A program made the position numbers and the translations under genes. Below are positions 15,761 to 29,102 of a stretch of 64,000 nucleotides of DNA, piece after piece; within the stretch, counting starts at the first letter, position 1; the number at the start of each line of letters is the position of its first letter. The notes below the pieces were generated by a model that was given only the letters and a program-made list of their open reading frames with translations, was not told the origin of the DNA and ran no database searches. Source of the stretch: Oscillospiraceae bacterium (GTDB taxonomy: Bacteria > Bacillota > Clostridia > Oscillospirales > Oscillospiraceae); contig JAFQZI010000137.1 of NCBI GenBank assembly GCA_017406005.1, positions 1 to 64,000 on the forward strand, read 5' to 3'.

Positions 15761-16414
15761 TTATACGCCGTAAAATTCAAGAAAACGTCTGGTCTCGTCT
15801 TTTGAAGGGTTGTTCAAAAGCTGCTCTGTTTCTCCTTGTTCTATAAGGCAGCCCTCATGGAGATAAATCATCCGGTCGGCAATTCTGCGAGCCTGCTGGA
15901 TGCTGTGTGTAATCAGAAGCACGGCGCAGCCTGTTTCTTTGCAAAAACTGCGGATCAGTTCTTCGGCGGCAAGAGTTGATTCCATATCCATGGCAGCTGT
16001 CGGTTCGTCGAGAATCAGAAGACGATAGGAACGCATCAGCAGACGGGCAAGAGCCATTTTTGCCGTTTCTCCCCCGGAGAGTTTTTTTGCCGGATGCCGG
16101 CAGAGATGCTCAAGGTTGAGAGCTTTCATCAGATAAGCAAAACGGTTTTTGTCTCCGCCGTTGAGGAGAATGTTGCGTTCCGTGCTCATGCGAAAGGCAT
16201 AGCTCTTCTGGGGCATATAACCCACGGTGATATCCGGAGAAATTCCTGTTTTCTGATCGGACAATTCAATGCCGGCCAGAATCTTCGCGAGGCACGATTT
16301 CCCGCTTCCGTTGGATCCCGCGACCGCGGTAATCTGCCCTTCGGGGATCTCAAAAGCGGGGAGATCCAGCACTTTGCGGATTCCGTATGTTTTGCTGACT
16401 GTAGGAACTTTCAT
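15761..16414 (-). CDS. tupC: Tungstate ABC transporter ATP-binding protein
   Basis: A 217-residue ABC ATPase with Walker A GSNGSGKSC (about 34-42), signature LSGGETAKMALARLL and Walker B LLILDEPTAAMD. It overlaps the permease gene by 4 bases (16411-16414). Together with a TupB-type permease and a TupA-like binding protein, beside molybdopterin genes and a tungsten enzyme, tungstate is the best substrate call; molybdate is the alternative. Confidence 0.85.
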   Translation of the reverse strand: MKVPTVSKTYGIRKVLDLPAFEIPEGQITAVAGSNGSGKSCLAKILAGIELSDQKTGISPDITVGYMPQKSYAFRMSTERNILLNGGDKNRFAYLMKALNLEHLCRHPAKKLSGGETAKMALARLLMRSYRLLILDEPTAAMDMESTLAAEELIRSFCKETGCAVLLITHSIQQARRIADRMIYLHEGCLIEQGETEQLLNNPSKDETRRFLEFYGV

Positions 16415-17097
16415 CTGCTCAGCCTCCTTTGCATCAGGCTGAGGAGTATATTTACAATCAGCGAAAGGCTAAGCAGAATCAGCCCGAGGGCGATACCAAG
16501 TGTAAAGTTTCCGCGGTTTGTATACTGCATAATGGCAGTCGTCATGACATTGGTTTTCCATGCAATTGCTCCGCCGACCATGGAAACGGCGCCTACTTCG
16601 GCAATGGCGCGGGCAAAAGCCAGAAGATATACGGAAAAAATCGGGTATACACATTCGTTGAGCAATAAAAAGAAACGTCTGCCGGCGGAAAAACCGAGGC
16701 CTCTGGCGGTTTCCCGGAGTGAAGGGGCAATATCTGAAACATATGTCTCCATGTTTCCGATGACAATAGGGGTAATCAGGACCACCTGAGCCAGGATCAT
16801 CAGTTTTACGGTGAAGAGCAGCTTCAGATGCCGGAAGGGACCGACTCCTGAAAAAAGCAGATAAAACAAAAGTCCGCAAACAACGGGAGGCATCCCCATC
16901 AGGGTACGGTTTATGACCAGCAGAATACCGCGGCCTGGAAATCTGCCTGTGCCCAGCCAGAGCCCGATCGGAACACCAATCAGCAGTGCGACGACAGAAC
17001 TGGTCAGGCTGACTCTGGCCGTAGTGGAAAGAATATTCAGGAGTTCGCGATCGGCTGAAAGGATCAACTCGATTGCTTTCTGGATGGAAGAACCCAT
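16411..17097 (-). CDS. tupB: Tungstate ABC transporter permease
   Basis: A 228-residue permease with about five to six hydrophobic segments, of the TupB/ModB class; the MGMPPVVCGLL and ARGLGFSAGRRFFLLL segments include the ATPase-coupling loop. It lies 104 bases after tupA, with a stem-loop in the gap, and overlaps tupC. Confidence 0.85.
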   Translation of the reverse strand: MGSSIQKAIELILSADRELLNILSTTARVSLTSSVVALLIGVPIGLWLGTGRFPGRGILLVINRTLMGMPPVVCGLLFYLLFSGVGPFRHLKLLFTVKLMILAQVVLITPIVIGNMETYVSDIAPSLRETARGLGFSAGRRFFLLLNECVYPIFSVYLLAFARAIAEVGAVSMVGGAIAWKTNVMTTAIMQYTNRGNFTLGIALGLILLSLSLIVNILLSLMQRRLSR

Positions 17098-17201: not shown

Positions 17202-18161
17202 TCAGATTGTGCCGTCGTTAGCGACAAAGGTGAGGAAGGTTGCTTTGTCGGTGAGGATATAAGCACCCATCTGCTCTGCCATGACAAGGCATGCGCCCAT
17301 ACCGGCATTTGCGGAGACGTACCAGCCGGTATAGTCGGCAAAGCTTTCTGCATCGGCAGTGATACCAAGCTCTTCGGGCCAGAGAGACAATTCCTTCGTG
17401 TGCGTGCCGGACCCGTCACCGCGGGAGATGAAAGTATACTTGCCGTCGGCAATTGCCTTGAATGCTTCAAGGACATCGGCGGCATCTTTTACACCGGCAG
17501 GGTCAGCTGACGGGCCGCAGAGTACAAAGAAGTTGTACATATAGCTCATACGTTCTTTTTCCATACCGTCGAGCACAGTTGCGAAACCTGCTTCTACAAA
17601 AGCATCCTCCTGCTTCTTTGCATGAACAAGAATCAGGTCAGCGTTGCCCATTTTTGCGTTGGCGATGGATTTGCCGGTACCGGCGGAATAGACTTCGACT
17701 TCGTAACCGTACTTTTCTTCAAAAATAGGCAGCAGATAACCGAGAAGGCCGGAGTCATTCACGGAGGTGGTGGTCGAGAGACGGATCAGCTTTGTTTCCT
17801 CTGTAGCAGCAGGAATCTCGGCGACGGAAACAGGGCGGTCATCCTTGAGATAGAACAGATACTCACCATATTCGGCAAAGCCGTAATTTGCAGCGAGATC
17901 CTCGCCTTCTTCGGAAAGCAGCCAGTTGATGAGTGCTGCCGCGCCGACAGTGTTGAGAGCAACGTCAGGCACTGCATTGCCGTCAGCATCAACAAAAGGA
18001 GCTTCGGGATTTACGGCCAGCAGGGTGTAGGTGTTGATCATGTTGTCGTCAGCCTCTTTGAGAATGCAGGTGTCAACAACAAGACCGTCAGCGGAAGCGG
18101 AAAGTGCAGCAATGCCAAAGAGCATGACCATTGCGAGGAACAGGGATACAGTTTTTTTCAT
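17202..18161 (-). CDS. tupA: Tungstate-binding protein, apparently circularly permuted TupA
   Basis: 319 residues. A signal peptide ends at ASA-D25 without a lipobox. Residues 130-138 (TTTSVNDSG), the SRGDGSGTHTKELSLW segment and GMGACLVMAEQMGAYILTD are TupA hallmarks. In ordinary TupA, TTTS lies at the mature N-terminus and the chain ends with an AVNP...WLLSEEG...F...GEYLF segment. Here that terminal segment comes first (about residues 28-107: LLAVNPE at 47-53, NWLLSEEGEDLAANYGF at 79-95, GEYLF at 99-103), is joined by a Pro/Ala/Glu linker (109-124) to the normal start, and the protein stops at TFLTFVANDGTI, where the moved segment would begin. This looks like a circular permutation rather than a duplication. 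The start ATG 18161 follows TAGGAGG. Confidence 0.85.
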   Translation of the reverse strand: MKKTVSLFLAMVMLFGIAALSASADGLVVDTCILKEADDNMINTYTLLAVNPEAPFVDADGNAVPDVALNTVGAAALINWLLSEEGEDLAANYGFAEYGEYLFYLKDDRPVSVAEIPAATEETKLIRLSTTTSVNDSGLLGYLLPIFEEKYGYEVEVYSAGTGKSIANAKMGNADLILVHAKKQEDAFVEAGFATVLDGMEKERMSYMYNFFVLCGPSADPAGVKDAADVLEAFKAIADGKYTFISRGDGSGTHTKELSLWPEELGITADAESFADYTGWYVSANAGMGACLVMAEQMGAYILTDKATFLTFVANDGTI

Positions 18162-20691: not shown

Positions 20692-22602
20692 TCAGAATAC
20701 GTCAATTATTTCACCGGGACGATCCAGCGTGTAACCGCCCAGGGCATTGATTCTCTCTTTGAATTCCCTGCTCTTCAGAGTACGGATCAGCTGACGGACC
20801 ATTCCAGTGCTCCATGCAACCTCGGGAATCAGCAGATCGTATTCTTCTTCACAAACGGGGATGAAATCGAGGTCATAAAGCTTTGCTGCAGAATAGATCC
20901 CCATACCGGCATCAGCAGAGCCACCGGCAATCTGAACTGCAACAGAGTTATGCGTCATCTCCTCCCGCTCATATCCATAGACGGAATCAGGGTTGATGCC
21001 ATTCTTCTGACAGAGATAGTCCATCAGGATACGCGTTCCGGAACCTTTCTGACGATTTACATAGCGAACACCGTCTTTCGAAATATCAGAAAAAGAACGA
21101 ATCTGAAGGGGATTTCCCTTCTGCAGCATCAATCCCTGCTGGCGGCCGACACAACGCACCAGGTAGACACCTCCGTACGGAAAATACTTTTTAATGTAGC
21201 TGACGTTGTATCGCCCTGTTTCCGTATCAAGCAGATGAATACCGGCAGCATGAGCCTCTCCGCGGCGAACCGCCATAATACCGCCCATTGACCCGACATG
21301 CGCGGAACTGAGATACATATTGTGGTTATCCCGATGAATAAGATCTGCCAGTTCGTCCAGCAGAGGGTCGTGACTCCCAATCACAACGAGAGTACTTTTC
21401 AGTTTCTTTTTCGGAGTAAGAAGGCTGACACGGATTTCTTCTCCGGAGGTATAACCCTCCGTCCCCTGCGGCACCGCGACCATGCCATCGGCTTTCATAA
21501 AAGAGGAGACAACACCGCTTCCGCGGGGGAGAGGAGATGCCATCAGCTGATTGCCGACATAACCCATGCGAACGCGGACGTACTCCTGGTATTTCAGGCC
21601 GGATACAACCTGTCGGGTCAGTCTGGCACGTGTGCGTGAACGGATTTCAGACTCCCGGTTGTACCACCGATCGATCAGCGGGCGGAGAAATTCTTCGATG
21701 ACGATAATGCCCGATACCGGATAACCCGGCACGCCCAGAATCGGGACAGAGCCTTTATAGCCCAGAATAGCGGGTTTGCCGGGTTTTATGGCAATACCGT
21801 GGTAGAGAACTTCCCCGACGTCACGCACTGCAGCAACGGAATAATCTCCACGCCCTGCAGAGGAACCGGCATTCAAAAGGACCATGTCACATTCCGCAGC
21901 TGCCCGGGAAAGCGTCTCTTTGATTTTATCAAACTGATCCGGCACGATGGGGTACGTTTTCGGGTCTGCACCCCAATCCTGCAGCATGGCGGAGAAAATG
22001 GAAGAGTTGAATTCCAGAATATCACCCGGCTTCGGATTGGCACAGGGTGGGATGATTTCATCTCCGGTGGGAATGATTCCTACAACAGGTTTGGCCAGAA
22101 CCTCAACTTCCAGGACACCACCGGCAATCATGGCACCGATTGCTGCAGGGGAAATCTCCATAAAACTCGGCAGAATCATTTCGCCGGCACAGATATCTTC
22201 GCCAATCTGGCGGATATGCTGCCAGGGAGCTGCAGCGGAGTGGATGGTGATGCTCTCATCTTCGTTTTTAACAAGATCCTCTACCATAATAACGGCATCA
22301 CAGCCATCCGGAATAGGATCACCGGTGTCTACAACGGTATATTTTTCTTTTGTTAAAGTGATAGGAGTTGTCTCTGTTGCGCCAAAAGTATCTTTTGCCA
22401 GCAATGTTACCCCGTCCATAGCACTTGCAGCATAGTGAGGGGCGTTGATATGGGCATAGACGGCCTTCGATGTGATGCGGCGATACGCGTCCTGCACACG
22501 AACAGTTTCCGTTTTAGCAGAGAAACCATGTTCAACCAATGTCCAGAGATAATCCTTTTTCGCCTGTTCTACAGGAGTATTCGTCAGATATTCAAACCCC
22601 AT
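20692..22602 (-). CDS. MoeA-family molybdopterin/tungstopterin protein fused to a PBP-like domain
   Basis: 636 residues. Residues 1 to about 410 are a complete MoeA, the enzyme that inserts molybdate or tungstate into adenylylated pterin: SAMDGV, VDTGDPIPDGCDAV, GIIPTGDE, NAGSSAGRGD, KPGKPAILG and GVPGYPVS. About 420-636 is a periplasmic-binding-protein-like domain without a signal peptide, containing NRQKGSGTRILMD and YEREEMTHNSVAVQIAGGSAD, and related to the C-terminal domain of the regulator at 23831. Such MoeA-PBP fusions are known and may deliver or sense the metal oxyanion. The start has AAGGAAGGG; the gene is 14 bases after the other moeA. Confidence 0.88.
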   Translation of the reverse strand: MGFEYLTNTPVEQAKKDYLWTLVEHGFSAKTETVRVQDAYRRITSKAVYAHINAPHYAASAMDGVTLLAKDTFGATETTPITLTKEKYTVVDTGDPIPDGCDAVIMVEDLVKNEDESITIHSAAAPWQHIRQIGEDICAGEMILPSFMEISPAAIGAMIAGGVLEVEVLAKPVVGIIPTGDEIIPPCANPKPGDILEFNSSIFSAMLQDWGADPKTYPIVPDQFDKIKETLSRAAAECDMVLLNAGSSAGRGDYSVAAVRDVGEVLYHGIAIKPGKPAILGYKGSVPILGVPGYPVSGIIVIEEFLRPLIDRWYNRESEIRSRTRARLTRQVVSGLKYQEYVRVRMGYVGNQLMASPLPRGSGVVSSFMKADGMVAVPQGTEGYTSGEEIRVSLLTPKKKLKSTLVVIGSHDPLLDELADLIHRDNHNMYLSSAHVGSMGGIMAVRRGEAHAAGIHLLDTETGRYNVSYIKKYFPYGGVYLVRCVGRQQGLMLQKGNPLQIRSFSDISKDGVRYVNRQKGSGTRILMDYLCQKNGINPDSVYGYEREEMTHNSVAVQIAGGSADAGMGIYSAAKLYDLDFIPVCEEEYDLLIPEVAWSTGMVRQLIRTLKSREFKERINALGGYTLDRPGEIIDVF

Positions 22603-22616
22603 TTCAAGACCCTTCC

Positions 22617-23828
22617 TTATTGATAAATTCTTATACTGGCGCCTTTTGGCAGGCCTTCACAGTCCCGATCGATGATGAAATACCCGTCTGCCCCGGAAAG
22701 CTGGGTAATCAGCCCGGATTTGGAATGTATGGGAAAAGCAAGAAGCTTCTCTCCTTTCCGTTCCAGGTGGCAGGCGTTTATCTGGGCTCTGCCATGGTTG
22801 GCACCGATATTTTCAGCAAGTTCTGCAGATACCGGAAAAACTGTATTCTCTCTGCCGGACAGTTGTGCCAGAAGAGGCAGAATAAAGAGCTTTGTTACGA
22901 AGAAAGCAGCCACCGGATGACCGGGCAGCCCGACGAGAGGCTTATTCCCGGCTTTGCCGAGAATAGTTGGTTTTCCAGGTTTGACGGCGATCCCGTGAAG
23001 GAGAAGCTTTCCCATGGATTCTATAATGCGGCAGGCAGCGTCTTTTACGCCCACACTGCTTCCGCCCGAGAGAATCACGGCATCACATTCTTTTGCCGCC
23101 AGCTCAGTCTTCTTTTGAAGCAGAGCCTCATCATCTACTACAATTCCGTAATTGACAGGTTCTGCCCCGAACTCACGTAAAACTGCAGACAGTAGAGGGC
23201 CGTTTACATCCCGTATCTGACCGGGAGCAGGCTGCTGATCCGGCGGAACAAGCTCATCTCCTGTAGAAATAACCCCGATACGAAGGCGCTTTTGTACGGG
23301 AATCTCTGTTTTTCCGATAGCAGCCAGGGCACCAATGTCCTGCGGGGCAAGAACATGACCGGCTTTCAAAAGCGGCTTTCCGGGAAAAACGTCATCACCC
23401 CGAAAGATCAGGTTCATACCGGGCGTTCCGGGTTTTGAAATTCCGATGGTCCCGTCACCGTAGTCCTCGGTATATTCTATCATGACAACACAGTCGGCAC
23501 CTTCCGGAATCGCACCGCCGGTAGGCACGTAGAAGCAAGTGCCTCTCGGGAGAGGAACGGCAGCTTCTTCGCCCATTTTTATTTCGCCTGCTACAGGCAA
23601 AATAGCAGGGATTGCATCGGAACAGCCAAAAGTGTCGGAAGCACGAACGGCATAGCCGTCCACTGTGGAACGGTTAAAACCCGGCACATATTCCGCTGCA
23701 ACAATATTTTCCGCGAGTACACAGCCAAGAGCTTCAGAAAGGGAGACAGTTTCCGCCTGTTTTGTCAGTGGCTGAAATTCCATTTCGATCAGCCGGAACA
23801 CCTCTTCCGGTGTCTTTACCTGCAGCAT
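22617..23828 (-). CDS. moeA: MoeA molybdopterin molybdotransferase
   Basis: A 403-residue stand-alone MoeA with STVDGYAVRASD, VPTGGAIPEGADCVVMIE, GVISTGDELVPP, LSGGSSVGVKD, KPGKPTILG and GLPGHPVA. It inserts the metal into the pterin cofactor. It lies 2 bases after the regulator gene stop (GGAGG lies in the end of that gene) and 14 bases before the MoeA-PBP fusion. Two MoeA proteins in one cluster are common where tungsten and molybdenum cofactors must be told apart. Confidence 0.92.
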   Translation of the reverse strand: MLQVKTPEEVFRLIEMEFQPLTKQAETVSLSEALGCVLAENIVAAEYVPGFNRSTVDGYAVRASDTFGCSDAIPAILPVAGEIKMGEEAAVPLPRGTCFYVPTGGAIPEGADCVVMIEYTEDYGDGTIGISKPGTPGMNLIFRGDDVFPGKPLLKAGHVLAPQDIGALAAIGKTEIPVQKRLRIGVISTGDELVPPDQQPAPGQIRDVNGPLLSAVLREFGAEPVNYGIVVDDEALLQKKTELAAKECDAVILSGGSSVGVKDAACRIIESMGKLLLHGIAVKPGKPTILGKAGNKPLVGLPGHPVAAFFVTKLFILPLLAQLSGRENTVFPVSAELAENIGANHGRAQINACHLERKGEKLLAFPIHSKSGLITQLSGADGYFIIDRDCEGLPKGASIRIYQ

Positions 23829-23830
23829 TT

Positions 23831-24772
23831 TTATACCTCCGCGATGATTTTACCGAGATCCCTGTAATCGTTGCCGGTGAAATGCCGGATTTCCTTCCGG
23901 AAAGGAGCAGAACGAAGGATTTCCAGGAGTTCTTCTCCTTCGGATGTTTCCAGAAATTCACGATGGACGGCGAGATCAAAGCGCTCCTGAAGAAGAGGGA
24001 TAAAGTCAAGCCCATCGATCTGTCTGGAGATCCTTTCCGTGCCAATGGCAAGATCTGCTTCTCCGGAGGCAATTGCGGCTGCCATCGTCAGGTGAGAGTT
24101 CATTTCTTTCTCATATCCGTTTACCATACGTTTGTCCAGCCCCATACGCTGGAGCTGCCCGTCAAGAAGCACACGAGCGCTTGAACCGTGACGGCGATTC
24201 AGAATGGAGATGTCCCGCCGGGCAAGATCTCGCCACCCATGAATCTCCTTCGGGTTTCCGGCGGTGACGTAAAACCCCTGCGTCCGATAGGAGATGTTGA
24301 TCAGTGAGACCGGGATACCGGGAAGAAGCCTTTTGACAAAGGGAACGTTAAAGCACTTTTCATCCGCGGCATAAAGATGACATGCGGCTGCAGTCACTTT
24401 TTCTTCATACAGGGCAAGGAGACCTTCAAAACTGTTCAGATAAACACGCTGCGACGGAAGAGACTTCTGATGGAGATAGTTGGCAATGATATCAAGAACC
24501 ACATCCTGCCCGGAAATGATAACAGCACCCGATTCTTCCTGCGCCGGATGTAGAAGACTGCTCTGAACTTCTATTTTTTTGACGGGCAGAACACTTTGCT
24601 CATGCCTGGATCGCGCGATATAGGCATCCACATCGTCCTGCGTAAAGCGTACTTTTCTGCCGATCTTGTAGGAATAGATTTCACCCCTTCGGATCAGCTC
24701 ATAAATAGTAGATTTGCTTACGTGGAGAATATCCGCAACTTCCTGCGTTGAGAGAGACTTGTTGAGCGCCAT
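23831..24772 (-). CDS. HTH regulator with PBP-like sensor domain, tungsten/molybdenum type
   Basis: 313 residues. An excisionase/MerR-like helix-turn-helix lies at about 6-50 (STQEVADILHVSKSTIYELI, ending in KVRFTQDDVDAYI). A binding-protein-like domain (about 85-313) includes RHGSSARVLLD and YEKEMNSHLTMAAAIASGEADLAIGTE. The domain resembles the C-terminus of the MoeA fusion at 20692. It probably binds an oxyanion or cofactor and controls the divergent AOR and moeA/tup units. It is the first gene of the minus-strand operon, with GAAGGAGG before the start. Confidence 0.85.
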   Translation of the reverse strand: MALNKSLSTQEVADILHVSKSTIYELIRRGEIYSYKIGRKVRFTQDDVDAYIARSRHEQSVLPVKKIEVQSSLLHPAQEESGAVIISGQDVVLDIIANYLHQKSLPSQRVYLNSFEGLLALYEEKVTAAACHLYAADEKCFNVPFVKRLLPGIPVSLINISYRTQGFYVTAGNPKEIHGWRDLARRDISILNRRHGSSARVLLDGQLQRMGLDKRMVNGYEKEMNSHLTMAAAIASGEADLAIGTERISRQIDGLDFIPLLQERFDLAVHREFLETSEGEELLEILRSAPFRKEIRHFTGNDYRDLGKIIAEV

Positions 24773-25083
24773 AAAAAAGCCTCCTTCGTTTCAAACTCAA
24801 TAGAGGTAGCCCGACACAGCCTTAACTAATATGTATTATATCTTTTTTCACAGAGGGAGACAAGCCATACAGCTACAAATCATACAGCTTGTTTCGTAGT
24901 ATTTCGGTTCAATTCGCACGGAATCTTTGCCTGCTTCATGCAGAGTTTTTCTCATTTCATGTTAATTCACACAAGAATCATGACGGTTTTTTCAGCAAGT
25001 CCATATTTATTGTATAATACATACTGTTGAATTGTCCTTTCAGGATACCATGATAAATAAAAATCTTTTTCAGGAGGTATTGT
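24773..25083. promoter_or_regulatory. Divergent regulatory region between regulator and AOR
   Basis: A 311-base gap without a credible ORF. It contains two direct copies of CATACAGCT (24866-24874 and 24881-24889, 15 bases apart), a candidate operator for the regulator at 23831, and an AOR promoter with TATAAT at 25013-25018 and a weak TTTTCA -35 at 24989-24994 (18-base spacer). The AOR ribosome binding site is AGGAGG at about 25072-25077. Confidence 0.55.
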
Positions 25084-26901
25084 ATGAGCGGCGCTTATTA
25101 TGAAAAAATAGCAAGAATCAACCTGACCACCGGTGAGATCAAGGCAGAGCCCCTGGATCTTGATATCGCCCACAAGTTTATCGGAGGCAGAGGCCTCGGT
25201 ACCAAGATCCTTTATGATGAGGGTGTTGCCACGGTCGATCCGCTGTCCCCGGAAAACAAACTCGTTTATATCACCGGCCCCATGACCGGATCGAATTCCC
25301 CATCCTCCGGCCGTTATATGGTTGTTACGAAATCTCCTCTGACCGGGATGATTGCCTGTGCCAACTCGGGCGGTATTTGGGGTGCAAAGCTGAAATTTGC
25401 CGGATGGGATGCCCTGATCGTCGAAGGCGCAGCTTCTGAGTGGAGCTATCTCTACATTGAGGATGACAAAATCCAGATTCTGGATGCAGGCGAGTATGTC
25501 GGCGTTCTGAGTGAAGAACTTGATGACAAGCTGAAAGAAAAGCACGGAAGTGAATGCTCTGTTCTGAATATCGGCCCTGCCGGTGAAAAGCAGGTTTTGC
25601 TCGCTGCCGTTATGAACGACAAAGACCGTGCTGCCGGCCGTTCCGGAACAGGCGCTGTTATGGGCAGCAAAAAACTCAAGGCCATTGTTGTCAAAGCTAC
25701 ACGCAAGCAGCTGGACATCATTGCCGATGTGGAAGCCCTCAAGGAAGCCAATAAGCGCTGCCTCAAGATCATGAGTGAAAACGCCCTCACCGGCGAAGGC
25801 CTGCGCGCACTTGGCACGGCATCTCTTGTAAACGTCATCAACAGCATCGGTGCACTTCCGACCAAGAACTGGCAGGAAAGCTATTATCCCACGGCAGATC
25901 AGTTCTCCGGGGAAACACTGGCTGAAAAGTATCTGGTCAAGCCCGGTGCCTGCTATCATTGTCCGATCGCCTGCGGCCGTATCATCAAGCACGACGACAA
26001 AATTATCGGCGGACCGGAATATGAGCCTCTGTGGGCCTACGGCAGCGACTGCTGCAACGATGATCTCTACACCATCGACGAGGCCAACCGGCTCTGTAAC
26101 GAATACGGCCTGGATGCTATCGGTGTTCCCTGCACGATCGCTGCAGCCATGGAACTTTATCAGCGCGGCTACATCAAAGAAGAAGAGTGCGACGGTGTTC
26201 CTCTCGAATGGGGCAGCAAAAAAGCGATCGTCGAGTGGACCAAGCGTATGGGCGATCCCGAAAGCCCGCTGGCATGGCTGATGTCCTCCGGTTCCGTTCG
26301 TCTCTGTGAGCATTACGGTCACCCCGAGTATTCCATGAGCGTTAAAAAGCAGGAGATCCCCGCTTACGATGCACGTGCCATCCAGGGTATCGGCATTAAC
26401 TATGCTACAGCAAACTGCGGCGCAGCCCATGTCCGCGGCTATATGATCGCTCCTGAGGTCGTCGGTATTCCGGTACAGCTGGATCGTACCGTCACCGAAG
26501 AGAAGGCTGTCTGGGCCAAGACCTTCCAGGATCTGACCGCTGTTATCGACTCAATGGGCAACTGCCTGTTCACATCCTTTGCACTCGGCGCACCGGAGTA
26601 TACAGATCTGCTTAACGCCGCCACCGGTACCAAATGGACACCCGAGCAGGTGCTGGAAATCGGCGACCGCATCTTCAACATTGAGCGTATGTTCAACAAG
26701 GCCGCCGGCATGAAGCCCGAGGATGACCGCCTGCCCAAGCGTTTGCTCGAGGAACCTGTTTCGAACGGGCCTTCCAAAGGCATGGTCAGCAAGCTCTCTG
26801 TCATGCTCCCGCAGTACTATGAAGCTCGCGGTTGGGTCAATGCGTTTCCGACAGATGAGACCCTTAAGAAACTGGGTCTTGACGAATGCGTGGGAAAGTA
26901 A
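25084..26901 (+). CDS. aor: Tungsten-dependent aldehyde:ferredoxin oxidoreductase
   Basis: A 605-residue AOR, which oxidises aldehydes to acids with ferredoxin, or the reverse, using a tungsten bis-pterin and a [4Fe-4S] cluster. Cluster ligands are C290-x2-C293-x3-C297 (CYHCPIAC) and Cys494 (SMGNC); this spacing matches the Pyrococcus furiosus enzyme. The N-terminal GGRGLGTKIL and the GSNSPSSGRY region are typical. It is transcribed divergently from the moeA cluster and followed by a terminator-like hairpin and cofactor-maturation genes. The physiological aldehyde is not evident. Confidence 0.95.
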   Translation: MSGAYYEKIARINLTTGEIKAEPLDLDIAHKFIGGRGLGTKILYDEGVATVDPLSPENKLVYITGPMTGSNSPSSGRYMVVTKSPLTGMIACANSGGIWGAKLKFAGWDALIVEGAASEWSYLYIEDDKIQILDAGEYVGVLSEELDDKLKEKHGSECSVLNIGPAGEKQVLLAAVMNDKDRAAGRSGTGAVMGSKKLKAIVVKATRKQLDIIADVEALKEANKRCLKIMSENALTGEGLRALGTASLVNVINSIGALPTKNWQESYYPTADQFSGETLAEKYLVKPGACYHCPIACGRIIKHDDKIIGGPEYEPLWAYGSDCCNDDLYTIDEANRLCNEYGLDAIGVPCTIAAAMELYQRGYIKEEECDGVPLEWGSKKAIVEWTKRMGDPESPLAWLMSSGSVRLCEHYGHPEYSMSVKKQEIPAYDARAIQGIGINYATANCGAAHVRGYMIAPEVVGIPVQLDRTVTEEKAVWAKTFQDLTAVIDSMGNCLFTSFALGAPEYTDLLNAATGTKWTPEQVLEIGDRIFNIERMFNKAAGMKPEDDRLPKRLLEEPVSNGPSKGMVSKLSVMLPQYYEARGWVNAFPTDETLKKLGLDECVGK

Positions 26902-26919
26902 GTATACTAAAATAAGAAG

Positions 26920-26945
26920 GGAGAGGCTGCCCGCCTCTCCTTTTT
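26920..26945 (+). terminator. Terminator-like hairpin after AOR
   Basis: GGAGAGGC (26920-26927) pairs with GCCTCTCC (26933-26940) around a 5-base loop and is followed by five T residues. The maturation genes resume 25 bases later without an obvious promoter, so partial read-through would give abundant AOR and less of the accessory proteins. Confidence 0.75.
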
Positions 26946-26970
26946 CTTCTGTACGAAGGGAGTTTTTTTC

Positions 26971-27192
26971 ATGATTGAAGTACGGTTTTTCGCTACGCTT
27001 CGGGAAGGCCGCGGCAAAATTGTTCAGGTTCCGGCTGAAGAAGTCTCCTGCGCCGGAGAAATTCTGAACCGCTTTGCAATTCCTAAGGAAGAAGTGGCGA
27101 TTCTGCTGATCAACGGGTTCCATTCAAAACCGGAGGATTCGGTAAAAGACGGGGATGTCATTGCCCTGTTCCCACCGGTTGGAGGTGGTTAA
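26971..27192 (+). CDS. MoaD/ThiS-like sulfur carrier protein
   Basis: A 73-residue beta-grasp protein ending PPVGGG; the terminal Gly-Gly is the site adenylylated and thiocarboxylated for dithiolene sulfur transfer in pterin cofactor synthesis. It follows AOR and directly precedes a ThiF/MoeB adenylyltransferase, its expected partner. GAAGGGAG precedes the ATG at 26971. No MoaE partner is seen in the window. Confidence 0.88.
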   Translation: MIEVRFFATLREGRGKIVQVPAEEVSCAGEILNRFAIPKEEVAILLINGFHSKPEDSVKDGDVIALFPPVGGG

Positions 27193-27193
27193 T

Positions 27194-27952
27194 ATGCCAC
27201 TTTCGGAGAAACAGAGGCAACGATATGCCCGGCAGCTATGCATGCCGGAAATCGGTCCTGCAGGACAGGAAAAGCTACTCTCATCCAAAGTGCTGGTAAT
27301 CGGCGCGGGCGGGCTTGGCTCTCCTGCAACTCTTTATCTTGCGGCAGCAGGCGTCGGTACCATCGGCCTTGTTGACAGCGATATAGTGGATCTCTCCAAC
27401 CTGCAGCGACAGATTCTGCACAGCACTGAGAAATTGGGTGTACTAAAGGTGGATTCCGGGGCTGAACGTCTGGAAGGATTGAATCCCGACGTGCACATTA
27501 TCCCGTATCCCATAGCCGTCACAGAAGAGAATATCGCAGAGTTGATATCTGATTATGATTTTGTGCTGGAATGCACAGACAACTTTGAAACCAAATACCT
27601 GATCAATGATGCCTGTGTCCGGGCGGGAAAACCATTTTGTCATGGGGCGGTATTACGCTTTTTCGGGCAGATTATGACCTATGTACCGGGACGCGGCCCA
27701 TGTTACCGCTGCGCCTTTCGCCACGCACCCGATCCCGAAAAGGCTCCGGATGCAAAGAAACTGGGCGTGATAGGAGCTGTGCCGGGTGTGATCGGCTGTC
27801 TTCAGGCTCTGGAAGCCGTCAAGTATTTGACCGGAACGGGAGAGCTGCTCGTCGGGAGATTTCTGAGTTTTGACGGGCAAGCCATGGATTTTGAGATTGT
27901 TGAACTGCCGCCTGACCCTGACTGTCCTGCCTGCGGGAAAAACATAAGCTGA
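27194..27952 (+). CDS. ThiF/MoeB-family adenylyltransferase
   Basis: A 252-residue E1-like enzyme that activates the C-terminus of the MoaD-like protein. The ATP-binding GAGGLGSPATLYL motif (about 36-48), DLSNLQRQ, and two CxxC zinc ligands (CYRC and CPAC) are present. ATG 27194 is one base after the moaD stop, with GGAGGTGG overlapping the end of that gene; an in-frame start at 27155 would overlap it by 38 bases. The cluster position assigns it to the tungsten cofactor rather than thiamine. Confidence 0.88.
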   Translation: MPLSEKQRQRYARQLCMPEIGPAGQEKLLSSKVLVIGAGGLGSPATLYLAAAGVGTIGLVDSDIVDLSNLQRQILHSTEKLGVLKVDSGAERLEGLNPDVHIIPYPIAVTEENIAELISDYDFVLECTDNFETKYLINDACVRAGKPFCHGAVLRFFGQIMTYVPGRGPCYRCAFRHAPDPEKAPDAKKLGVIGAVPGVIGCLQALEAVKYLTGTGELLVGRFLSFDGQAMDFEIVELPPDPDCPACGKNIS

Positions 27953-27965
27953 GAGATAAAGGCAT

Positions 27966-29102
27966 ATGGAAGACCATATCCGAAAACTGTATATAGAGGT
28001 TACTTCCCGCTGTAATCTTCAATGCAAGATGTGCTTCCGGCGCAGCTGGGTCGGAGAACGATTCGGGGATCTTGATCCGGGAGTGTTCGAACGGCTTCTG
28101 GACAATGCAGCTCTTCAAAAGACGGAGACGGTCTTTTTCGGAGGGATGGGTGAACCACTTGTCCATCCGAAACTGGCGGAGATGGTCGCTCTTGCCGTAA
28201 AACACGGGAGAAAGGTCGAGCTGATCACAAACGGAACTCTTCTTGAAAAAGGGAGAATAAAGGATCTGCTCAAGGCGGGGATCTCAAGAATATGGGTTTC
28301 CATCGATGAAATCTATGAGAATTATGATAAAATCCAGATCGGCAGCGATTTTGATCTGGTTCGCGGGAATCTTGAGCTTCTGAACACTTTGCGCCGGGGG
28401 ACAGATGTCAGGCTCGGAATGACGGCGGTCGTTATGCGGGATAATATTGCCAGCCTCCGCAGAATTCGTGATTTTGCAGAGTATTTTCAGGCTGATGACC
28501 TGAATCTGAGCCACATGATTCCCAATCGGCGGGAAGATACTTCCCAGGCACTATGGCCGATGTGTGATGTAGCTGCCATCAAAGAAGTCACTGACAGGAT
28601 GGGCCCGGTCTGGCGTGTTGAAAAGCTGGATGAAAGCCGGGATATCCCCATGTTCAAGTTCTCCGAACGTTATAAGAAAGAACTCTTTCCCGATGAAGAA
28701 AGCCTTTTGGAAGCGGAGCTGTTTTCCTGGAAAGGGAAACCTGCTATGAGGCGCATGAACTGCTGCCGCTTTATTGAGGAAGGACATTGCTTTGTCCGCT
28801 GGGACGGTGATGTGTCCCCCTGTATGGGGCTCCTCCATACTGCAGACACTTATCTCGGAGACCATAAGCGGAGAATCTGGCATCAATCGTTCGGCAACAT
28901 CTATCATCAGAGCCTCGAGGAAATCTGGAACAGTGAGGAATACCGCAGCTTTCGGGATCGCGTGCATGAATTCAATTATGCACCGTGCCTGTTCTGCGGT
29001 GGCTGTGAACTGCTGAATGAGAACAAAGCGGACTGCAACGGCAGTCTGGCGCCGACATGCGGCGGCTGTCTGTGGGGTCAGGGGTTTGCGGTTTGCCCGT
29101 AA
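27966..29102 (+). CDS. Radical SAM maturase of tungsten oxidoreductases
   Basis: 378 residues. The radical SAM cluster motif is C16-x3-C20-x2-C23 (RCNLQCKMC), followed by GGMGEPLVHP. The C-terminal part is cysteine-rich (RWDGDVSPC, CLFCGGCELL, ADC, CGGC), as in SPASM-type auxiliary cluster domains. Radical SAM proteins of this kind accompany AOR genes in the family described as tungsten cofactor oxidoreductase maturases; the chemistry is not established. It lies 13 bases after the ThiF gene and ends the AOR operon. Confidence 0.85.
   Translation: MEDHIRKLYIEVTSRCNLQCKMCFRRSWVGERFGDLDPGVFERLLDNAALQKTETVFFGGMGEPLVHPKLAEMVALAVKHGRKVELITNGTLLEKGRIKDLLKAGISRIWVSIDEIYENYDKIQIGSDFDLVRGNLELLNTLRRGTDVRLGMTAVVMRDNIASLRRIRDFAEYFQADDLNLSHMIPNRREDTSQALWPMCDVAAIKEVTDRMGPVWRVEKLDESRDIPMFKFSERYKKELFPDEESLLEAELFSWKGKPAMRRMNCCRFIEEGHCFVRWDGDVSPCMGLLHTADTYLGDHKRRIWHQSFGNIYHQSLEEIWNSEEYRSFRDRVHEFNYAPCLFCGGCELLNENKADCNGSLAPTCGGCLWGQGFAVCP

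Follow-up and report, generated by a model that had tools for sequence, protein, structure and literature searches.

The permuted gene lies on the minus strand at positions 17202..18161 of the window, the 64,000 nucleotide stretch of an Oscillospiraceae gut bacterium which was analyzed here, and encodes 319 amino acids followed by a stop codon. It was identified as tupA from the ORF list, from NCBIfam and PDB (phmmer) searches, and by profile-profile comparison and a rotation scan. After a gap of 104 bases it is followed on the same strand by the gene for a TupB-like permease (16411..17097), which scores 149 bits against NCBIfam TupB, below the cut-off of that model (320) and above that of the general subfamily NF038017, and then by an ABC transporter ATPase in the position of TupC (15761..16414). 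Both genes expected beside a tupA are thus in place. The gene very probably specifies the binding protein of a TupABC-type tungstate importer, with a circularly permuted polypeptide. Rfam gave no match in the window at gathering scores.

On the other side of tupA are two moeA-like genes for molybdopterin metal insertion (20692..23828, minus strand), the first of which has a PBP_like domain at its C-terminus, and a gene for a member of the aldehyde ferredoxin oxidoreductase family (25084..26901, plus strand), which is a family of tungsten enzymes. Together with an HTH regulator carrying a PBP_like domain, a ThiF-family protein and a radical SAM/SPASM protein these occupy positions 20692-29102, a probable tungsten-enzyme cluster. 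Since the genome (92.9% complete) has two AFOR_N matches and none to PF00384, tungsten is the likely cargo of the importer.

The protein begins with a signal peptide (residues 1-24; 18090..18161) which, judged by eye, ends in SASA, is of the AxA type and lacks a lipobox cysteine. Residues 25-108 (17838..18089) align with the C-terminal end of canonical TupA and carry AVNP at 49-52 and GEYLF at 99-103. A linker (residues 109-124; 17790..17837) lies between the two old termini, and residues 125-319 (17205..17789) match the first three quarters of canonical TupA and carry TTTS at 130-133 and, at the C-terminus, TFVANDGTI. These are the features from which a sequence-only reading had proposed a circularly permuted TupA, namely an end segment directly after the signal peptide, TTTS at 130 and an end at TFVANDGTI, and all are present in the ORF. 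The same reading had the linker joining the old ends; we can add that its length is constant, the distance from LF to TTTS being 28 residues in 102/102 ORFs that showed both motifs. The permuted proteins also possess a DADGN-rich insertion of 11 residues (residues 55-65, window 17967-17997, with DADGNAV at 58-64), which bears some resemblance to a calcium-loop pattern; it is missing from canonical TupA and shorter in the Bacillales locus L103.

Evidence for the swapped order

The long segment is readily recognized. In phmmer searches against the PDB the whole sequence matched the TupA chains 3muq and 3lr1 with E values of 1e-44 and 5e-43, respectively, residues 124-312 aligning near positions 5-178. 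The front residues fell at the ends of these two chains (30-89 on 183-231, and 26-54 on 180-208), these hits being individually non-significant (i-E 28 and 210). In the search with NCBIfam TupA (NF041772, 266 positions) residues 125-315 were placed on positions 16-192, and the 84-residue front piece (25-108), submitted alone, had as its sole NCBIfam match positions 199-253 of this profile (E 0.0036). The protein thus covers 16-192 and 199-253 of the profile, that is, it is homologous to TupA over its full length, with the order swapped relative to the canonical N-to-C arrangement.

The decisive evidence comes from the comparison of profiles. A profile of 103 permuted front segments matched the last 73 columns of a profile of 44 canonical TupA sequences with an E value of 8.6e-20, the runner-up place having E 0.65 and five column-shuffled controls 0.09-0.62. 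A smaller front profile of 35 sequences gave 6.9e-20, and against the PDB its only matches below E 0.1 were the TupA chains 3kn3, 3muq and 5my5, in each case at the chain end; 3lr1 was absent from these matches. In a rotation scan scored with an HMM built from 31 canonical sequences, the mature window protein scored 198.6 bits in its native order and peaked at 241.3 bits for starts at residues 112-118, which lie within the linker, while four canonical control proteins peaked no more than three residues from zero rotation.

Each segment is present once. A six-frame scan of the whole window found one occurrence of each, the only other front-segment match having an i-E of 3.5, and a second C-terminal segment would not fit into the 104 bases that separate tupA from tupB. 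The earlier argument that one copy of each part means permutation thus holds, no second in-frame C-terminal segment being present in the window, and duplication in place of permutation is ruled out. An origin of the front segment in another family is likewise ruled out by the NCBIfam, PDB and Pfam searches; the best Pfam E value among 35 front segments was 0.0043 (SBP_bac_11, in 8/35). Since its two segments each occur once, are homologous to the parent and have exchanged places, the window protein is confirmed as a natural circular permutant of a TupA-type tungstate-binding protein. We name it TupA-type rather than an equivalog member because its score of 127 bits does not reach the equivalog cut-off of 400, a value reached by no match, canonical ones included, in 398 genomes of the phylum. 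The permutation accounts for the fact that the best NCBIfam alignment covers only a portion of each of these proteins.

Lobes, ligand pocket and membrane anchor

In Desulfovibrio (D.) alaskensis TupA, lobe A is described as residues 2-76 and 201-251, lobe B as 91-200 and the central strand as 77-89 (PMC5517513). Tyr201, the first residue of the second part of lobe A, aligns with Tyr45 of the window protein in the phmmer PDB alignment. Through these published limits, window residues 26-44 would be equivalent to the final part of lobe B and residues 45-108 to lobe A's second part, which eliminates a cut exactly at the lobe boundary. The new cut would therefore lie within lobe B, before its last strand, leaving both inter-lobe crossovers intact. 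The old termini, both in lobe A, would have been joined by the 16-residue linker, and the new termini would be in lobe B, from which the signal peptide or lipid anchor would hang instead of from lobe A.

The ligand residues given for TupA are Thr9-11 and Ser12 (the TTTS motif), His59, Arg118, Thr124 and Asp170 (PMC5517513). All eight are kept in the window protein, as T130-T132, S133, H180, R247, T253 and D305. Across the 95 distinct permuted sequences seven of these positions are identical in 95/95, and the eighth, position 132, is occupied by Thr (93 sequences) or Ser (2). With the oxyanion pocket residues retained, and the crossovers probably too, the permuted TupA is predicted to keep its fold, to shut around tungstate like a trap of two lobes and to pass the anion to TupB.

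Inspection of the 105 permuted ORFs by eye gave 75 with a lipobox-like cysteine, 21, the window's included, with a signal peptide lacking one, and 9 which were left unassigned. Among the 15 other binding proteins of the same genome a signal peptide is readable in eight, none of which has a clear lipobox; the lack would thus be a habit of this genome rather than an effect of the permutation. Signal peptides of the AxA type without a clear lipobox were noted in the window TupA and at L168, L170, L172, L174, L175, L178, L179 and L181. These are unusual for a Gram-positive relative.

Distribution and history of the permuted gene

The earlier reading had suggested looking for the same order in related genomes, and it is found there. 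Among 300 genomes of the bacterium's own family, 46 (its own included) have a match at E 1e-10 or better. Of these matches 34 are full-length permuted proteins, 68-84% identical to the window protein apart from its own gene, eight consist of the long segment only and four are diverged or truncated. Thirty of the 34 permuted genes were checked as ORFs, the other four being judged by query range alone. At the level of the class 47/391 genomes match, again counting its own, and add three full-length permuted genes (G883, G1048 and G731), the remaining 43 having the long segment only. A genome-contig scan, of which the best 80 of 83 relatives were kept, contributed the permuted loci L031-L105, the canonical L106-L108, and L109 and L110, which are canonical with a weak C-terminal match. 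The named permuted loci belong mostly to Oscillospiraceae (37) and Lachnospiraceae (11), with lone representatives in Coriobacteriales (L066, from a co-assembly bin) and Bacillales (L103).

In 103 of the 105 permuted loci (L001-L105) the front segment precedes the long one in a single unbroken ORF with one copy of each. In the other two, L095 and L104, the order is the same but the frame is interrupted, and they are classed with L164 as frame-broken or contig-cut permuted genes. Since some genes were taken twice from two collections, the 105 loci represent 95 distinct sequences. All 46 canonical ORFs containing both segments (45 distinct) show the opposite order. The gene tupB adjoins tupA in 97/97 permuted loci with at least 800 bases of room, eight loci being too short, and tupC comes next in 64/64 of those in which TupB was found and at least 1600 bases were available; among canonical loci with room, searched with the window TupB, tupB adjoins in 36/48. 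The permutation is a genuine inherited rearrangement, carried by related bacteria.

We constructed trees from the long, the front and the joined segments. In all three FastTree phylogenies the 95 permuted sequences separate from the full set of 45 canonical sequences. Support for this group is low with the long segment (0.28) and amounts to 0.77 (front) and 0.84 (joined), values as printed after re-rooting, by which labels can shift. Mixture-model trees, calculated from a subset of the rows (17/95 permuted, 40/45 canonical), place the permuted rows in one group with SH-aLRT values of 97.5 (front) and 99.7 (long). Because the permuted sequences group apart, a single origin is simplest, and the simplest history would be one permutation of tupA within an existing operon. 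The grouping compatible with one origin, like the segment order and its conservation, the single copies, the pocket residues and the operon, follows directly from the sequences. In the mixture model the permuted sequences further group with the canonical L106, L107, L108 and L152, with support of 99 for the long segment and 0 for the front segment, the latter having 68 columns. In the TupB tree, too, the permuted operons are neighbors of L106-L108; L152 has no adjoining TupB.

The permutation would have arisen in two steps, a tandem duplication of tupA that kept the reading frame and then the loss of the outer parts. Tandem pairs of canonical tupA occur at three of the 30 loci L111-L140 (L128, L138 and L140), so that starting material for such a route is available. 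No duplication intermediate was present among the sequences examined; a 720-amino acid frame of genome G356, considered as one, proved to be canonical TupA behind GGDEF and HD domains.

Tandem pairs would equally provide for a fusion, in which another TupA gene, distinct from the first, supplied the front segment and the protein's own C-terminal end disappeared. The front-segment FastTree points in this direction, placing L118 and L136 nearer the permuted group than L106-L108 and L152, and favoring L118 as neighbor with support of 0.999. This hint of separate origins for the two segments was not upheld under the mixture model, which groups both segments with the same four canonical sequences, the front-segment branch having support 0. 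We regard a fusion as unlikely, and the topology is permuted in any case. An artefact of assembly or binning, or the addition of an unrelated N-terminal domain, might be suspected because the window's genome is a draft of 174 contigs with an estimated contamination of 6.6%. The unbroken frame in 103/105 loci and the presence of the permuted gene in a single-contig genome (G078; L030, L165) rule out an assembly chimaera and, with the E value of 8.6e-20 for the front segment, make any such explanation exceedingly improbable.

A different question is whether the permuted protein still belongs to a tungstate importer or has come to bind another oxyanion, such as molybdate, or to act in sensing. 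The permuted group has insertions of its own, among them DADGNAV, there are diverged permuted relatives lacking the pocket residues (L160-L163), and specificity for tungstate versus molybdate is not readable from these sequence data. Against this stand the seven invariant pocket positions, the tupB gene beside every permuted tupA with room for it, the nearby aldehyde ferredoxin oxidoreductase and moeA genes, and a genome devoid of PF00384 matches at its 92.9% completeness. A change of role is in our estimation rather improbable, and we retain the permuted tungstate-binding protein as the preferred interpretation.

Diverged relatives and known permutants

Four proteins of the permuted type have diverged considerably. 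L160 (4865-5965) is a full-length permuted protein with 27% identity to that of the window; it lacks TTTS and SRGDxSGT, and neither TupB nor TupC was found beside it. L161, L162 and L163, from the bacterium's own family, contain lobe A only and have lost TTTS, yet their alignments to the permuted profile run through the junction and its linker, with E values of 3e-21, 1e-22 and 3e-18, respectively. By eye they start at the equivalent of Tyr45 and finish at the central strand. Orthologues of these lobe-A-only lipoproteins are L183-L187. In genus g84 the lobe-A-only gene occurs in five of nine genomes; its product has a lipobox-like signal peptide, and a gene for a similar membrane protein comes next. 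The one downstream of L162, which overlaps the lobe-A gene by four bases, belongs to DUF308 (PF03729, E 2e-23), an assignment that covers this neighbor alone of the five. In the genus of L161 the gene occurs in one of five genomes, that of L161 itself. For the lobe-A-only genes dN was lower than dS in 10/10 pairs, barely so in one (0.64 vs 0.66).

The permutation sets the two parts of lobe A side by side, so that this normally split lobe becomes contiguous. We incline slightly to the view that the permutation served as a stepping stone, lobe B being lost later to give a family of lobe-A-only lipoproteins without TTTS, located before DUF308 in g84. If so, a permuted binding protein seeded a new single-lobe family, and these derivatives offer a natural test of whether permutation opens a route to the loss of a lobe.

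The window protein shares with canonical TupA (3lr1, 3muq, 5my5, 3kn3; NF041772) homology in both segments, the ligand residues and the tupB/tupC neighbors; its identity to canonical L108 is 57% in the long and 47% in the front segment. It differs in the reversed order of the segments, the additional linker and insertions, the missed equivalog cut-off and, according to the published lobe limits, in having termini that would lie in lobe B rather than lobe A.

Permuted binding proteins are already known. TpMglB-2 (Tp0684) of Treponema pallidum is described as a circularly permuted glucose-binding protein for which the class "Type Ic / Cluster Bc" was proposed, and its function and ligand-induced closure were demonstrated (PMC4990184). 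Like the window protein it is a natural permutant of the binding protein of an ABC importer, and it has relatives in Gram-positive and gut bacteria (PMC4990184). It is a Type I sugar binder with a fourth crossover, the permuted part of which is 13% identical to its counterpart (PMC4990184), whereas the window protein would be an oxyanion binder of the TupA type, homologous by sequence in each of its two segments and retaining both crossovers. It does not fall within the Type I sugar-binding fold, its Pfam and NCBIfam matches being PBP_like_2, SBP_bac_11 and TupA. The CPSARST report lists a circular-permutation family of the glycine betaine binders 2B4L, 1R9L and 1SW1 and the molybdate binders 1AMF and 1ATG (PMC2395249). 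That case too concerns permutation among binding proteins, within the betaine binders and towards the molybdate binders, and was found by structure at less than 24% identity (PMC2395249); the present one is readable in the sequence, within one family and the same operon. A permuted tungstate or type II binder was not reported among the open-access matches listed, and a tungstate-binding permutant of the TupA type appears to be unreported.

This natural permutation can be read from the sequences of a single family and operon type, for which both forms are available together with candidate sister sequences and the cut point. It is therefore testable how a shift of the termini and membrane tether from lobe A to lobe B affects the closing of the trap, its affinity and the delivery to the permease, and the permuted and canonical pair provides a way to study how permutations arise.

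One canonical relative has an unusual architecture. At L166 (1218-3377) a frame of 720 amino acids contains GGDEF and HD (HD_5) domains and then TupA, no signal peptide intervening, and the product is possibly a cytoplasmic tungstate-sensing c-di-GMP protein.
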